A DNA stretch of 64,000 nt from Noviherbaspirillum soli (GTDB taxonomy: Bacteria > Pseudomonadota > Gammaproteobacteria > Burkholderiales > Burkholderiaceae_D), in assembly GCF_015352955.1 (NCBI RefSeq), contig NZ_JACYOX010000003.1, positions 186,001-250,000 on the forward strand, read 5' to 3'. Positions within the stretch are counted from its first letter, which is position 1; the number at the start of each line of letters is the position of its first letter. The notes under the pieces were generated by a model. The model was not told the DNA's origin. It ran no database searches and saw only the letters and a program-made list of their open reading frames with translations. Below are positions 10,731 through 32,413 of the stretch, one piece after another. The position numbers were made by a program, and so were the translations under genes.

Positions 10731-10746
10731 TGGCACGCGCCTTGCA
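10731..10746 (+). promoter_or_regulatory. Sigma-54 (RpoN) promoter of the PEP-CTERM gene
   Basis: TGGCACG-N4-TTGC at 10731-10745 fits the -24/-12 consensus exactly, with GG at 10732-10733 and GC at 10744-10745 in the right spacing. Transcription would start near 10757, giving a leader of about 86 bases before the ATG at 10843. In floc-forming betaproteobacteria, PEP-CTERM genes are known to depend on RpoN and the PrsK/PrsR system, which supports the call. Confidence 0.85.
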
Positions 10747-24823: not shown

Positions 24824-26179
24824 TCACGGCGCCGCATCCTGATCGGGCATGGCGATGCCCAGGGCCTTGAGGCGCCGATAGAGGGTGCGCTCGCTTAACC
24901 CGAGCTGGCGCGCAAGCTCCTTCCGCGTTCCCGGGAAGCCGCGTGCCAGCCTGGCCAGTTCGGCATCGGACATGCGCCTGCCCGCAGGCGCCGGCAGGCC
25001 CGCCGGCTGCGGCGCCGACGGCGCAACCGCGGCCAGCGCCGGCAACTGCGGCAGATCGATGATGCCGTCGTCGGCAAACAGGCTGGCCCGCTCCAGCACA
25101 TTGCGCAGTTCGCGGATGTTGCCCGGCCAGTCATGGCCCGCCAGCCTTGCCACGGCCTGCGGCGTGATGCGCAGCGGCCGCGACGACTGCGCCATGCGCT
25201 GCAGGAAGGAGTCGACCAGGATGGGAATGTCGCCGATGCGTTCGCGCAGGGCGGGCAGCTCGATCGGAAAGGCGCTGATGCGGTAGTACAGGTCCTGCCG
25301 GAAGCGGCCGTCGGCCACCATCTCGCGCAACGGCTTGTGGGTGGCGGCCACCAGCCGGAAGTCGGCCTGCAGAGTTTCCACGCCGCCGACCCGGCGGAAG
25401 GTCCCGGTTTCGATCAGGCGCAGCAGCTTGACCTGCATGCCCAGCGGCACGTCGCCGATCTCGTCCAGGAACAGCGTGCCGCCGCGGGCAGTCTCGACCA
25501 GCCCGTGCTTGCGGCTTGCCGCGCCGGTGAATGCGCCCTTCTCGTAGCCGAACAGTTCGCTTTCGAACAGCGTCTCGCTCAGCCCGGAGCAATCGACCAC
25601 CACGAACGGCCCGCGCGAGCGCTCGCTGGCCTCGTGCACCGCGCGCGCAAACAGCTCCTTGCCGCTGCCGGACTCCCCCAGCAGCAGCACCGGCAGGCGC
25701 GATGGCGCCACCCGCTGCAGCGCTTCCAGCGCCTGCATGAAGCACGGCGAACGCCCCACCAGGCCGTCGCTGCTGGCGCGGGCCGAGGCCTGCCGCACCG
25801 TGACCAGGTGCTCGACATAGCCGACCACGTTGCCCGCCGCATCCAGGATGGGGCGCAGTTCCACGTTCACATGCTCCGGGCCGCGCGGCGTGTGATGGAT
25901 GTGCAGCACCCGGTCGGGGCCGCGCTTTTCCAGCGCCTTCTTCATCGGGCAATGCTCGCCGGCCAGGTCGCACGGCTTGTCATAGTGATGGGACACCCGG
26001 AAACACTTCTGCCCGACCACGGACTGCCCGGCCAAGCCGAACTGGCGCCGGTAGGCCGTGTTCGAGGCCAGGATGTTGTAGTCGGTGTCGAGCACGATGG
26101 CTGGCTGGGCTTCCTGGTCGAGGTAGGAAACGAGCGCCTGCACCTGGGCATCGGGAACGCTGGAAGTCATGGTCGGCAT
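24824..26179 (-). CDS. fisR: FisR-type sulfane-sulfur-sensing sigma-54 activator
   Basis: Enhancer-binding protein for RpoN holoenzyme. From ATG 26179 it has 451 residues: a PAS-like sensor domain (about 10-150), a AAA+ domain with Walker A GESGSGKE, the intact sigma-54 contact motif GAFTGA (in [10 protein letters not shown]), and a C-terminal Fis-type helix-turn-helix ([20 protein letters not shown]). The sensor carries three cysteines spaced 11 and 7 residues apart (C59, C70, C77 here), the same spacing as C53, C64 and C71 of Cupriavidus FisR, which react with sulfane sulfur. It is divergent from a sigma-54 promoter driving persulfide dioxygenase and SQR. GGA precedes the chosen ATG; ATG 26170 is an alternative. 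Confidence 0.9.
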
Positions 26180-26238
26180 CCATTCCGGAAAGTAGGGGGG
26201 CAGGCTGGCAGGGGGCGGGAAGCGCTGCCAGGCATGTC

Positions 26239-26268
26239 TGCCATTTGCTGCCATTCTCTGCCATTTCA
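26239..26268. promoter_or_regulatory. Candidate FisR upstream activating sequence (three 10-bp repeats)
   Basis: The heptamer TGCCATT occurs at 26239, 26249 and 26259, exactly one helical turn apart, in the divergent region. Its centre is about 145 bases before the predicted sigma-54 start site, a usual distance for activator binding. No other repeat of this kind was seen nearby. Confidence 0.5.
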
Positions 26269-26369
26269 GTGCGGTTGTCAGTATGCCGACGTCGCAGCTG
26301 AGCGATGCCTTGGAAAATTAGTCCTTTAAATTCAATGACCTGGATGTATAAGGCTTTTTCTCCGCCGGC

Positions 26370-26385
26370 TGGCACGCTGCTTGCG
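26370..26385 (+). promoter_or_regulatory. Sigma-54 promoter of the sulfide oxidation operon
   Basis: TGGCACG-N4-TTGC at 26370-26384 matches the -24/-12 consensus exactly. The predicted start (about 26396) gives a 34-base leader with GGAGGAAA before the pdo ATG at 26430. The sigma-54 activator gene is divergent just upstream. Confidence 0.88.
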
Positions 26386-26429
26386 CTACAGGGTGACATC
26401 AATGTCAGCACGACGCTGGAGGAAACATC

Positions 26430-27314
26430 ATGAATGGCAACAGCATCCTGCAGGTGGAAGGCTTCTTCGACCCGCGCACCTGGACCGTCAGCTACCTCGT
26501 GCTGGACCGCGAGACCAGGCAGTGCGCGCTGGTCGACAGCGTTCTGGACTACGACCCGAAATCCGGGCGCACCGGCCACGCCAGCGCCGACCGGCTGATC
26601 GCGCGGGTCAGGGAACTGGGCGCCAAGGTGCAGTGGATACTGGAAACCCATGTGCATGCCGACCATCTCTCGGCCGCGCCCTACCTGAAGGAGAGGCTGG
26701 GCGGCCGCGTCGGCATCGGCAGCCGGATCACCACCGTCCAGGACGTGTTCGGCAAGCTGTTCAACGCCGGCCCCGGCTTCGCCCACGACGGCAGCCAGTT
26801 CGATCACCTGTTCGAGGATGGCGAGGAATTCCGCATAGGCGGCTTGCGGGCGAGGGCGATGCACACGCCCGGCCATACGCCGGCCTGCATGACCTATGTC
26901 GTCGGCGACGGCATCGAGGACGCCGCCTTCGTCGGCGACACCCTGTTCATGCCCGACTACGGCACTGCCCGCTGCGACTTCCCCGGCGGCGACGCGCGCA
27001 CCCTGTACCGCTCGATCAACAAGGTGCTCTCCCTGCCGCCGGCCACCCGGCTCTACATGTGCCACGACTACCAGCCCAACGGCCGCGAGGTGCAGTTCGT
27101 CAGCACCGTCGCCGAGGAGCGCAGGCAGAACATCCATGTGCGCGACGGCATCAGCGAGGAAGAATTCGTGGCGATGCGCACGAAGCGCGACGCGACACTG
27201 GAGATGCCGGTGCTGATCCTGCCGTCGGTGCAGGTCAACATGCGCGCCGGCCATCTGCCCGAGCCGGAAGACAACGGCCGGCGCTACCTGAAGATACCGA
27301 TCGACTCGCTTTGA
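26430..27314 (+). CDS. pdo: Persulfide dioxygenase (ETHE1-like metallo-beta-lactamase fold)
   Basis: Oxidises glutathione persulfide to sulfite with a single iron, the step after SQR in sulfide detoxification. The 294-residue protein has HVHADH at 74-79, His149 in HTPGHTPA, Asp170 in GDTLF and His212 in MCHDY, the metal-site set of the beta-lactamase fold. Length and the C-terminal extension (SVQVNMRAGHLPEPEDNG) resemble the longer bacterial PDO/Blh-type enzymes rather than human ETHE1. It is first in the sigma-54 operon, 49 bases before the SQR fusion gene. Confidence 0.93.
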   Translation: MNGNSILQVEGFFDPRTWTVSYLVLDRETRQCALVDSVLDYDPKSGRTGHASADRLIARVRELGAKVQWILETHVHADHLSAAPYLKERLGGRVGIGSRITTVQDVFGKLFNAGPGFAHDGSQFDHLFEDGEEFRIGGLRARAMHTPGHTPACMTYVVGDGIEDAAFVGDTLFMPDYGTARCDFPGGDARTLYRSINKVLSLPPATRLYMCHDYQPNGREVQFVSTVAEERRQNIHVRDGISEEEFVAMRTKRDATLEMPVLILPSVQVNMRAGHLPEPEDNGRRYLKIPIDSL

Positions 27315-27362: not shown

Positions 27363-29057
27363 ATGGACATCCGCAGACTGACTCCCGAACTTTCCGTGTC
27401 GCCGCAGATCGTGCCGGCCGACGTGCCGGCGCTGCAGGCGGCGGGCTACCGCGCGCTGATCTGCAATCGTCCGGACGGCGAAGGCAACGACCAGCCGCTG
27501 TTTTCCGAGATCGAGGAGGCGGCCCGCGCCTGCGGCATCGAGGCGCATTACCTGCCGGCCGAATCGGGCAAGGTCAGCGACGGGCAGGGCGCGGTGTTCG
27601 GCGCGCTGATGGCGATGCTGCCCAAGCCGGCGCTTGCCTACTGCCGCACCGGCATGCGCTCGACCACGATGTGGGCGCTGTCGCAGTCGGGCAGGCGGCC
27701 GCTGCCGGAGATCATCGATGCCGCCAGCCATGCAGGCTTCGACCTGAAGGGCGTGGTGCGGCGCATCGCCCATGGCGGGCGCACGCCGGTGGAGGTCAGC
27801 GAGGCCGAGCATGAGGTGGTGATCGTCGGCGGCGGCGCGGCCGGCATTGCGGCGGCCGCCAGCCTGCTGGCGCGCAGCCCGGGGCTGGACGTGGCCATCA
27901 TCGACCCGGCCGACGTGCATTACTACCAGCCCGGCTGGACCCTGGTCGGCGGCGGCGTCTTCGATGCGCGCGACACGGTGCGCACCATGGGTTCGCTGAT
28001 CCCGCAGGGCGCGCACTGGATCAAGGCCGCGGTCGCCGCCTTCGAGCCGGAGCGCAATGCGGTGATCCTCGACGGCTGCCGCGTCGTCCGCTACCGCCAG
28101 CTGGTGGTGTGCCCCGGGCTGAAGCTGGACTGGCATGCGGTCGACGGCCTGGCCGAGACGCTGGGCCACAACGGCGTGACGTCGAATTACCTGTACCACC
28201 TCGCGCCCTATACCTGGGAACTGGTGCGCAATCTGCGCGGTGGCCGGGCGCTGTTCACCCAGCCGCCGATGCCGATCAAGTGCGCCGGCGCGCCGCAGAA
28301 GGCGATGTACCTGGCTGCCGACCACTGGCGCCGCAGCGGCGTCCTGGACAAGGTCGACATCGGCTTCTTCAACGCCGGCGCGGCCCTGTTCGGCGTGCCG
28401 GACTATGTGCCGGCGCTGATGGAGTATGTGCAGGCCTACGGCATCGACCTGAATTTCAACCATGCGCTGACGGCGATCGACGGGCCGGGCCGGGTGGCCA
28501 CCTTCACCCGGACCGCGGCGGACGGCACGAAGGAACTGGTGCAGAAGGCGTTCGACATGATCCACGTGGTGCCGCCGCAGAAGGCGCCCGACTTCATACG
28601 CGTGAGTCCGCTGGCGGATGCGGCCGGCTGGGTGGACATCGACCCGGCGACGATGCGGCACAAGCGCTATCCCAATGTGTTCGCAATGGGCGACGCCGGC
28701 AACACGCCCAACGCCAAGACCGCCGCGGCGGCCCGGGCCCAGGCGCCGGTGGTGGCGCACAACCTGCTGGCGGCGCTGGGCCGCGCGAAGGGCGAGGCGC
28801 ACTACAACGGCTACGGTTCCTGCCCGCTGACGGTCGAGCGCGGCAGGATCGTGCTTGCCGAATTCCTGTACGGCGGCAAGCTCGCGCCCAGCTTCCCGTC
28901 GTGGCTGATCGACGGCACCCGGCCGTCGCGCCTGGCCTGGCTGCTCAAGGAGCGCATCCTGCCGCCGCTGTACTGGGAAGGCATGCTGAAGGGCCGGGAA
29001 TGGATGGTGCAGCCCGAGCTGGTGGATGCCGCCGCGACCAATGAAGCCGTCTCCTGA
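27363..29057 (+). CDS. sqr: DUF442-sulfide:quinone oxidoreductase fusion
   Basis: A 564-residue two-domain protein. Residues about 1-115 are a DUF442 (TIGR01244) phosphatase/rhodanese-like domain with the active loop CRTGMR starting at Cys94. Residues about 145-550 are a flavoprotein sulfide:quinone oxidoreductase: FAD motif GGGAAG at 156-161, redox cysteines Cys250 (VVCPG) and Cys307 (KCAGAPQK), the FAMGDAGNTPN segment, and YGSCP with Cys487. SQR oxidises H2S to sulfane sulfur and gives electrons to quinone at the membrane surface; the fused domain may pass the sulfur to glutathione for PDO. AGGAGA precedes the ATG. Confidence 0.93.
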   Translation: MDIRRLTPELSVSPQIVPADVPALQAAGYRALICNRPDGEGNDQPLFSEIEEAARACGIEAHYLPAESGKVSDGQGAVFGALMAMLPKPALAYCRTGMRSTTMWALSQSGRRPLPEIIDAASHAGFDLKGVVRRIAHGGRTPVEVSEAEHEVVIVGGGAAGIAAAASLLARSPGLDVAIIDPADVHYYQPGWTLVGGGVFDARDTVRTMGSLIPQGAHWIKAAVAAFEPERNAVILDGCRVVRYRQLVVCPGLKLDWHAVDGLAETLGHNGVTSNYLYHLAPYTWELVRNLRGGRALFTQPPMPIKCAGAPQKAMYLAADHWRRSGVLDKVDIGFFNAGAALFGVPDYVPALMEYVQAYGIDLNFNHALTAIDGPGRVATFTRTAADGTKELVQKAFDMIHVVPPQKAPDFIRVSPLADAAGWVDIDPATMRHKRYPNVFAMGDAGNTPNAKTAAAARAQAPVVAHNLLAALGRAKGEAHYNGYGSCPLTVERGRIVLAEFLYGGKLAPSFPSWLIDGTRPSRLAWLLKERILPPLYWEGMLKGREWMVQPELVDAAATNEAVS

Positions 29058-29090: not shown

Positions 29091-29297
29091 ATGAAAGCCA
29101 ATGTCGGTAGCACGGACCGCAGCCTGCGCATCGTCGCCGGCCTGATCATCCTGTCGCTGTATTTCTTCCTCGGCGAAGGAACGCGCTGGCTGGCGCTGAT
29201 TGGCCTGGTGCCCCTGGTTACAGGGCTAGTGAGCTGGTGTCCGCTTTACACCCTGCTGGGCATCCGCACCTGCCGCGCGCCGTCGCGGCAGGGCTAG
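29091..29297 (+). CDS. DUF2892 (YgaP-like) small membrane protein
   Basis: A 68-residue protein with the DUF2892 pattern: MKANVGSTDRSLRIVAGLII then a second helix and the conserved SWCPLYTLLGIRTC end. Two membrane helices. In other bacteria this domain is fused to or beside rhodaneses and sulfur enzymes. It follows the SQR gene by 33 bases with AAGGAAG as ribosome site, within the sulfide operon. It may be a membrane partner of sulfur trafficking; no reaction is known. Confidence 0.9.
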   Translation: MKANVGSTDRSLRIVAGLIILSLYFFLGEGTRWLALIGLVPLVTGLVSWCPLYTLLGIRTCRAPSRQG

Positions 29298-29398: not shown

Positions 29399-30199
29399 AT
29401 GACGCTGTACCTGTTCCTGGGCCTGGTGACAGGCGCCATCCTCGCGCTGACCGGCGCCGGCGGCGGCATCCTGGCCGTGCCGCTGCTGGTGTTCGGCGCG
29501 CACATGGGCATGGCGCAGGCCGGGCCGATCGGCCTGCTGGCCGTGGGCATGGCGGCCAGCCTCGGCGCGGCCCTGGGCTTGCGCCAGGGGATCGTGCGCT
29601 ACCGCGCCGCGCTGCTGATCTCCGGCGCCGGCATGCTGCTGTCCCCGGTGGGGCTGTGGCTGGCGGCGCGGGTGGACAACCGCTCGCTGACCGTCCTGTT
29701 CGCCGTCGTGCTGGCCATCGTCGCCTGGCGCGGCTTCCGCCAGGCCGGGGCCGCCGCCAAGCCCGGCCAGCGCAGTCCACCCTGCCTGCGCGATGCCGCC
29801 AGCGGCCGCTTCATCTGGACCACGCCGTGCGCGCGCTCGCTGGCAATCGCCGGCGGCATCGCCGGCCTGCTGTCTGGCCTGCTGGGCGTCGGCGGCGGCT
29901 TCGTGATGGTGCCGGCGCTGCGCCGCACCACCGACCTGGAAATGGAATCGGTCGTGGCCACTTCTCTGGCCGTGATCGCGCTGGTCTCGGCCAGCGGCGT
30001 GGCCTCCAGCATCGTGGCCGGCCGCCTGGAATGGGCGGCGGCCTTGCCCTTCTGCGCCGGCGCGCTGGCCGGCATGATGGGCGGCCGCATGGTCGCGGCC
30101 CGCATCGGCGGCGCCCACGTCCAGCGCGCCTTTGCCGCGGTGGCCGCGCTGGTCGCGCTCGGCATGGTGGCCAGGGCGGCGCTGTCGCTGCCGGCCTGA
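29399..30199 (+). CDS. TauE/SafE family sulfite/sulfur-compound permease
   Basis: A 266-residue membrane protein of the TauE/SafE family, probably an exporter of sulfite or a related anion. It has two similar halves, each with the family glycine-rich motif: GAILALTGAGGGILAVPLL near the start and GIAGLLSGLLGVGGGFVMVP in the middle, with seven or eight hydrophobic segments in all. The ATG at 29399 follows CGGAG. As the last gene of the sulfide oxidation operon it fits removal of the sulfite made by PDO. Confidence 0.91.
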   Translation: MTLYLFLGLVTGAILALTGAGGGILAVPLLVFGAHMGMAQAGPIGLLAVGMAASLGAALGLRQGIVRYRAALLISGAGMLLSPVGLWLAARVDNRSLTVLFAVVLAIVAWRGFRQAGAAAKPGQRSPPCLRDAASGRFIWTTPCARSLAIAGGIAGLLSGLLGVGGGFVMVPALRRTTDLEMESVVATSLAVIALVSASGVASSIVAGRLEWAAALPFCAGALAGMMGGRMVAARIGGAHVQRAFAAVAALVALGMVARAALSLPA

Positions 30200-31140: not shown

Positions 31141-31198
31141 GACGAGTAAAAAATCAGCGTGCATGTGCCGCTGCCATGACGACGGTCAAAGGGAAAGG

Positions 31199-31537
31199 AT
31201 GACAACCACCGCCAATATCGATATCGAGCAGCTGCGCCAGGCCGCCGGCCAGGCCTGCGGGCTGGTGAAGGTGCTGGCCAATCCGGACCGTCCGCTGCTT
31301 CTGTGCCAGATGACGCAGGGCGAGTACTGCGTCGGCGAACTCGAGGAGGCGGCCGGGATCAGGCAGCCCACCCAGTCGCAGCAGCTGACCGTGCTGCGCG
31401 GCGAGGACATGGTCGCCACCCGGCGCGAGGGCAAGCAGATCTGCTGCCGCATCGCCAGCCGGGAAGCGCTGGCGGTGATGACGCTGCTTCATGCGCTCTA
31501 CTGCGCACCGGAAAAGGAAAAGGAGAAGGCATCATGA
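31199..31537 (+). CDS. bigR: ArsR family persulfide-responsive repressor (BigR/SqrR-like)
   Basis: A 112-residue winged-helix repressor. DNA-binding residues are in [20 protein letters not shown] followed by [20 protein letters not shown]. Two cysteines, Cys36 (LLLCQ) and Cys102 (ALYCAP), are 66 residues apart, the same distance as the sensing pair of BigR (42/108) and SqrR (41/107), which form a tetrasulfide link with persulfides and leave DNA. The metal-site motif ELCVCD of ArsR is absent. The gene overlaps the next by ATGA, so it should control the two YeeE/YedE genes. The start ATG has GGAAAGG ahead. Confidence 0.9.
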
Positions 31538-31965
31538 ACATCGACTGGACCCATTTCACGCCATGGGCCTCGCTGGCGGGCGGCATCCTGATCGGCGTCG
31601 CGGCGGCGGTCTTCATCCTCTTCAACGGCCGCATCGCCGGCATCAGCGGCATCCTCGGCGGATTGCTGCATCCGGCCAGGAACGACATCCTGTGGCGCAT
31701 TGCCTTCCTGGCGGGCCTGGTGGTCGCGCCGCTGCTCTATGCCATGGTCAGTCCGCTGCCCGGAACCGTGGTGGATGCCGACGCCGGGATCCTGATTGTG
31801 GCCGGCCTGCTGGTGGGCGTGGGCACCCGCTATGGCGCCGGCTGCACCAGCGGCCATGGCGTCTGCGGCATCGCCCGGCTGTCGCCGCGCTCGCTGGTGG
31901 CCACCGCCTGCTTCATGGCGGCCGGCTTCGCCACCGTGTTCATCGTCCGCCACCTGCTCGCCTGA
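31534..31965 (+). CDS. YeeE/YedE family (PmpA-like) sulfur transport protein
   Basis: A 143-residue membrane protein with four helices. The YeeE/YedE hallmark [20 protein letters not shown] is present, with the two conserved cysteines, along with [12 protein letters not shown] near the start. Family members move thiosulfate or other sulfur species across the membrane; the PmpA/PmpB pair next to BigR-type repressors is a known arrangement. It overlaps the repressor gene by four bases and is 11 bases before its partner. Confidence 0.92.
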
Positions 31966-31975
31966 GGAGATCGCC

Positions 31976-32413
31976 ATGCAGATCGTCACCGCACTGTTCG
32001 CCGGCCTGGTTTTCGGCATCGGGCTGATCCTGTCCGGCATGACCAACCCGGCCAAGGTGATTGGCTTCCTCGACCTGGCCGGCGACTGGGACCCGTCGCT
32101 GGCGCTGGTGATGGCGGGCGCCATCGCGGCGGCCTTCCTGCCGTTCCGGCTGGCCGGGCGCCGGTCGGGCGCGCTGCTCGGCGGGCCGATGCGGCTCCCG
32201 GCGGCCACCCGGATCGACCGCCGCCTGGCGCTGGGCAGCCTGGCATTCGGCGTGGGCTGGGGACTGGCCGGCTATTGCCCCGGCCCGGCGCTGGCCTCGC
32301 TGCTGTCGGGCGGCATCAAGCCGCTGGTCTTCGTGCTGGCGATGCTGGCCGGCATGGCCCTGTTCGAGTTGCTGGAATGGCGGCCGCGGGAAGGCCGGCA
32401 CGAAACCGCCTGA
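31976..32413 (+). CDS. YeeE/YedE family (PmpB-like) sulfur transport protein
   Basis: A 145-residue partner of the preceding protein, with the [20 protein letters not shown] start typical of PmpB-type subunits and a cysteine in [18 protein letters not shown]. Three to four membrane helices. Each half resembles half of the full-length YeeE transporter, so the two probably form a heterodimeric channel. AGGAG at the end of the previous gene serves as ribosome site. Confidence 0.92.

Follow-up and report, generated by a model that had tools for sequence, protein, structure and literature searches.

FisR controls sulfide genes in Cupriavidus pinatubonensis JMP134, and its modification by polysulfide via three cysteines has been published for FisR of Cupriavidus (PMC9774590, PMC12170894). 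In Acinetobacter baumannii, FisR and BigR are both present, and sulfide induces cydAB, for which the accessible part of the report names no regulator (PMC7315123). Elsewhere, the norR-norVW intergenic region has three enhancer sites, which the NorR oligomer needs as a scaffold (PMC2941729), mutations in Nla28 half-sites reduce both binding and promoter activity (PMC9765219), and IHF-assisted looping is frequent at sigma-54 promoters (PMC7057263). FisR control of pdo-sqr, tandem direct half-sites (Nla28), and multi-site scaffolding (NorR) are thus already known. Neither a published FisR operator or half-site nor a link between FisR and cydA was found in the accessible parts of the literature searched (PMC7315123, PMC9774590, PMC12170894, PMC8148161), a scope outside which Li 2017 falls.

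Here, we describe a repeat array between divergent fisR and pdo genes in a 64,000-nucleotide stretch of the Noviherbaspirillum soli genome (the window; all coordinates refer to it). Judged by sequence comparison, the repeats very probably form a FisR-bound upstream enhancer of the pdo-sqr sigma-54 promoter, with FisR encoded divergently, and the array is most likely one copy of a widely conserved candidate FisR docking array.

The fisR-pdo intergenic region

The activator gene fisR (24824..26170, minus strand) translates into a protein matching Pfam PAS_4, Sigma54_activat, and HTH_8, that is, a PAS N-terminal sensor, a sigma-54 AAA+ domain with GAFTGA at 212, and a Fis-type HTH. Taking the ATG at 26170 as start, three cysteines are found at C56, C67, and C74, with the FisR-type spacing of 11 and 7 that the first-pass annotation had reported; the reference for this spacing is the residue numbering of JMP134 FisR. 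Cys-Cys-Cys is kept in every homolog of >48% identity whose alignment covers those positions, and the gene adjoins the pdo/sqr operon, as befits a member of the FisR group. On the plus strand, pdo (26430..27314) encodes a persulfide dioxygenase-type metallo-hydrolase (NCBIfam Blh, E = 1.5e-121, below its cut-off) and is followed by a gene in which a sulfurtransferase-like domain (TIGR01244) is fused to an SQR-like oxidoreductase (27363..29057; SQR model below its cut-off). Domain searches assign the next two plus-strand genes to a YgaP-like small membrane protein (29091..29297) and a TauE/SafE-type sulfite exporter (29399..30199). From their spacing and common strand, we infer that these four genes form one operon. 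The 31163-32413 region holds a gene for a BigR-like ArsR regulator (NCBIfam BigR, E = 2.4e-26, below its cut-off), after which come genes matching Sulf_transp and DUF6691; the BigR-like system is likely a second persulfide-sensing system within ~8 kb of fisR.

Three plus-strand copies of TGCCATT start at 26239, 26249, and 26259, in the exact 10-base steps initially described. They had been placed about 145 bases upstream of the start, and the middle copy indeed lies ~144 bases before the predicted transcription start at ~26396 (i.e., 12 bases past the -12 GC); the repeats precede the pdo ATG (26430) by 164-191 bases. As a single word, TGCCATT is not enriched in the 64-kb window (10 found, 10.6 expected). 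No 7-mer in the 64 kb other than TGCCATT and its one-base shift, CTGCCAT, has three copies at exact 10-base steps, and no phased 7-mer triple at such steps arose in 60 dinucleotide shuffles of the window. The count of three copies was correct but incomplete, since two more are present, one direct at 26225 and one inverted at 26206, and TGCCATT, although present as a repeat, is not the conserved unit; that unit is CTGCCA, with the TT unconserved. Read in this form, the direct array spans 26225-26263 and comprises four plus-strand candidate FisR half-sites (26225..26230, 26238..26243, 26248..26253, and 26258..26263), the final copy beginning 112 bases before the sigma-54 promoter. The inverted half-site, TGGCAG (26206..26211, minus strand), precedes the first direct copy by 19 bases. 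The array lacks the dyad symmetry of a classical palindromic UAS, the best inverted partner at 7-10 bases matching at only 4 of 6 positions.

As had been annotated, a consensus sigma-54 promoter lies between the divergent genes: TGGCACGCTGCTTGC (26370-26384, plus strand) matches TGGCAC-N5-TTGC at 10/10 positions, has a core conserved in the congeners, and is one of two exact sigma-54 consensus matches in the 64-kb window. The second exact match, TGGCACGCGCCTTGC, is found at 10731 on the plus strand. An IHF-like site, ATTCAATGACCTG (26330..26342, plus strand), with 2 mismatches to WATCAANNNNTTR, precedes the promoter by 40 bases; a site with 2 mismatches is common in shuffles, yet this one sits in the same register as in relatives. 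A second, equal 2-mismatch IHF-like site at -54 was ranked as the window's best in the register comparison. Among the 40 fisR-linked pdo loci introduced below, 31 carry a match with ≤1 mismatch to WATCAANNNNTTR within 100 bp before the promoter, compared with 9.6% of shuffles, and their IHF-like sites are most often near -40.

The CTGCCA half-site and its tie to FisR

FisR relatives were collected, with the window's own genome counted, from the genus (3/4 genomes, E 1e-100), the family (50/294, 1e-130), the order (6/399, 1e-150), and the class (12/369, 1e-140). The fourth congener has no FisR at E 1e-100 and no pdo at E 1e-40. Both other FisR-bearing congeners have direct arrays of this half-site at a similar distance from the pdo promoter. 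The repeats are thus conserved in close relatives, where the first-pass annotation had named a lack of conservation as grounds for refuting its proposal. Counted from the pdo promoter, half-sites start at -145, -132, -122, and -112 in the window; at -152, -142, -131, and -121 in one congener (G003), where a CTGACA comes next; and at -145, -123, and -113 in the other (G001), whose first two half-sites flank a degenerate GTGCCA. Conserved in the alignment of the three species are two CTGCCA units, the IHF-like core, and the promoter core: the second and third direct copies of the window are invariant across the three congeners, the fourth is only partly conserved in the other two, and the first has a CTGCCA counterpart in G003 alone. 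No genome of the three contains an inverted pair that is both exact and close, although a more distant inverted copy is present in the window and in G003. In G001, fisR and pdo are ~2.2 kb apart, the array remains at the pdo promoter, and no half-sites are found within 300 bp upstream of fisR, an arrangement that favours pdo rather than fisR as the main target. Between the two G001 genes lie ~2 kb of additional DNA (L129, about 430-2400), part of which resembles a methyltransferase gene.

The family FisR matches (50 rows) contributed 30 loci, plus 19 of the remaining 20, which were also fetched (G090 was left out); further FisR loci came from the best 80 of a named-genome scan and from 2 Cupriavidus metallidurans plasmid records. 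Before counting, duplicates of the window, G001, or G003 loci (L001, L002, L120, L121, and L122) were dropped, as was L036, in which the pdo part is far from the array, though the fisR-proximal region has one; FisR loci without a pdo of ≥60% identity in the fetched stretch are not part of the set. The resulting 40 fisR-linked pdo loci share ancestry and fall into 11 groups under permissive clustering.

Upstream of 41 FisR-family genes, CTG(C/T)CA occurs 187 times, compared with 18.2 expected from shuffles, and in 34/41 loci the count was reached by 0/200 shuffles. Of the 198 half-sites found upstream of the 40 pdo genes, 71% have an A directly before them, and no strong preference is seen on the 3' side; the conserved unit in these alignments is therefore (A)CTGCCA. 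TGCCATT was rejected as the conserved unit, its TT not being kept among the 198 sites. In 11 representatives, 20 of 28 pairs of same-orientation neighbours are 9-13 bp apart (null mean 10.1, maximum 17 in 2000 trials). Runs of at least three direct half-sites at 9-13 bp are seen in 23/40 loci; 24/40 contain an exact inverted pair spaced 7-10 bp. In Burkholderia arboris and B. latens, one inverted copy follows four direct ones, B. seminalis has a further direct copy, and in C. metallidurans CH34 three direct copies precede inverted ones. The 9-13 bp preference and the mixed orientations make the exact 10-base spacing, which holds in the window but fails as a general rule, a local version of a looser one.

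In all 40 fisR-linked pdo regions, the stretch from -230 to -40 relative to the promoter (taken as the best-scoring match near each ATG) contains three or more half-sites, with 3 to 8 half-sites within 285 bp of the gene. None of 40 control pdo upstream regions without linked FisR has three or more (25 sites in 18,080 bp); these controls were hand-chosen from a longer list, 33 of them from genomes without a FisR match at E 1e-130 and the remaining 7 as second copies in FisR-bearing genomes. Less similar activators, among the matches listed, carry three half-sites in 1/69 cases (22 sites in 23,944 bp), the 69 control activators, from the named-genome scan, including a few distant FisR-like proteins. 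The pdo-proximal array thus has the makeup of a UAS, namely multiple conserved sites upstream of the promoter that are tied to the cognate activator, and the proposal that the repeats are a candidate FisR site gains support, at the level of sequence, from their conservation and their link to FisR, though not in the form of a TGCCATT unit or an exact 10-base rule.

Three pdo genes (L169, L177, and L179), which belong to FisR-free genomes or are an unlinked copy, have a sigma-54-type promoter match, no linked FisR, and no CTGCCA sites, suggesting control by another sigma-54 activator; the array is therefore not inherent to sigma-54-type pdo promoters. Some FisR loci without an adjacent pdo are weak (no half-site in L010, one in L033), and among the order- and class-level loci (L150-L164) only 4/15 have at least three sites in 450 bp. 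Since arrays are often missing at distant FisR-like loci, the CTGCCA code is not universal.

Arrays upstream of cydA in relatives

Some FisR homologs adjoin cydA (Pfam PF01654). In L016, L019, L020, L026, and L038, cydA is found downstream of fisR on the same strand, with pdo on the other side; in other FisR-cydA loci the arrangement is divergent. CydA proteins ≥80% identical to the FisR-associated type occur in 15 family genomes (16 rows), all of which fall among the 50/294 that bear FisR. Taking one locus per genome (L210-L224), at least three half-sites are present within 400 bp upstream of cydA in 15/15, three that fall together within 60 bp in 13/15 (not L212 and L223), and a sigma-54-like match (≥7/10) 200-250 bases before the gene in 14/15. 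Of the next 15 CydA loci (65-75% identical to this type), 7 of which come from FisR-bearing genomes, none has three half-sites. Among the sequences read in L210-L224, L016, L019, L020, L026, and L038, a predicted small membrane protein, which we take to be CydP-like, is encoded between the promoter and cydA; the one in L214 has no Pfam match.

The association does not extend to all FisR-like proteins. Those with 49-57% identity and the same three cysteines that are encoded beside cydA often come without a CTGCCA array: L048, L050, L051, L150, and L155 have a sigma-54-like promoter and no array, and L151 and L157 have only scattered half-sites. Distant FisR-cydA lineages probably read another sequence. 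We favour, with a modest degree of confidence, the view that what FisR reads is an orientation-flexible CTGCCA array rather than fixed palindromes, and that one code marks two parts of the defence against sulfide, pdo-sqr for its oxidation and, in relatives, cydA for the sulfide-resistant cytochrome bd oxidase. If so, FisR would directly couple sulfide disposal to a sulfide-tolerant respiratory chain (cytochrome bd), and the head-to-tail array in the window's genus would need FisR HTHs that load in the same direction.

A single Pfam match to cydA is present in the window's own genome; it belongs to a distant type, 35% to that associated with FisR, and has no array. The FisR-associated CydA type has no match in this genome at E 1e-120. 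A search of this genome for paired or triple direct sites, covering ten regions, found no three-half-site cluster at the usual distance from a good sigma-54 promoter, and no exact palindrome CTGCCA-N2-TGGCAG was found in it. In one of these regions (L124), a 9/10 promoter match is preceded by a single site at 127 bases and a pair at ~290-300 bases, and this could conceivably be a further FisR target; L126 and L167 have weaker matches.

Alternative readings, mechanism, and described systems

That the array mainly serves fisR itself, by autoregulation, and not the pdo promoter is an unlikely reading. It overlaps a weak sigma-70-like match, CTGACA-17-GAGAAT (26253..26281, minus strand; a consensus match only), that could drive fisR, and some fisR genes without a divergent pdo have upstream sites (L012, L023); however, G001 keeps its array at pdo with none in the 300 bp upstream of fisR, and in L023 and L031, where pdo is not divergent from fisR, half-sites lie upstream even so. 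Autoregulation of fisR may be an added role of the array. It is quite unlikely that the array binds a different pdo regulator, such as a repressor or global regulator. The window does encode a BigR-like ArsR regulator, at 31163. Yet a factor unrelated to FisR is not expected to follow fisR, and three or more half-sites are absent from every one of the 40 chosen pdo regions without linked FisR, while the contrast between the two sets of 15 cydA loci (at least three half-sites in each FisR-associated case, three in none of the non-linked ones, even with 7 of these in FisR-bearing genomes) points the same way.

Because TGGCAG, the half-site on the reverse strand, resembles the -24 box TGGCAC, the words might be sigma-54 -24 elements or decoys, a very improbable reading that is rejected by phase: 10-base steps put the next GC one base short of -12. 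Half-site spacing and orientation also vary, and the sigma-54-type pdo promoters of L169, L177, and L179 have no such sites. We give almost no credence to a chance tandem repeat or functionless slippage product; short direct repeats can arise by slippage, but the phased triple was absent from all 60 shuffles and the half-sites are kept in otherwise diverged sequence.

For the preferred reading, a FisR-bound enhancer of the pdo-sqr promoter, we infer the following course of events. Each CTGCCA would be a half-site for one Fis-type HTH, so that the array at 26225-26263 gathers FisR subunits; sulfide would be oxidised to polysulfide, FisR would be modified through its three cysteines, and the modified protein would form an active AAA+ oligomer on the array and reach sigma-54 RNA polymerase by looping, with IHF presumably bending the DNA ~40 bases before the promoter. 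In this way, the array would help the bacteria to switch on genes that dispose of toxic sulfide. Some relatives have similar arrays ahead of genes for a sulfide-resistant respiratory enzyme as well. Counting against the preferred reading is the lack of a close inverted partner in the window array, which is unusual for a dimeric Fis-type HTH. As a testable operator, the CTGCCA array would make FisR targets predictable in Burkholderiales and Pseudomonas, and direct FisR control of cytochrome bd is predicted in some relatives, a FisR-cydA link that we regard as the most interesting extension of the array finding. The direct, mixed, and inverted half-site arrays offer a natural series on how sigma-54 activators assemble on DNA.

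Among the described systems, AnfA of Rhodobacter capsulatus is likewise a sigma-54 activator and has two copies of its enhancer site, but each site is a dyad, TAC-N6-GTA (PMC7294313), whereas no close dyad is seen in the FisR array of the window. NorR of Escherichia coli resembles FisR as a stress-sensing sigma-54 activator with a multi-site enhancer and differs in sensing NO through a GAF domain; direct half-sites are not described for it in the accessible text (PMC2941729). Nla28 of Myxococcus xanthus is similar in acting as a sigma-54 activator on tandem direct half-sites in clusters of 3-5; its unit is the 8-bp CT(C/G)CG(C/G)AG with looser spacing (PMC9765219), whereas that of FisR, a persulfide sensor, is CTGCCA at mostly 9-13 bp. 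The three conserved sensing cysteines of Cupriavidus FisR (PMC9774590, PMC12170894) are present in the window's FisR as well. A. baumannii A1S_1708-1711 is like the window in its divergent sigma-54 activator, predicted sigma-54 promoter, persulfide dioxygenase, SQR, and TauE (PMC7315123); the accessible part of that report gives no FisR operator, whereas the present comparison defines, in other species, a half-site array in that role.
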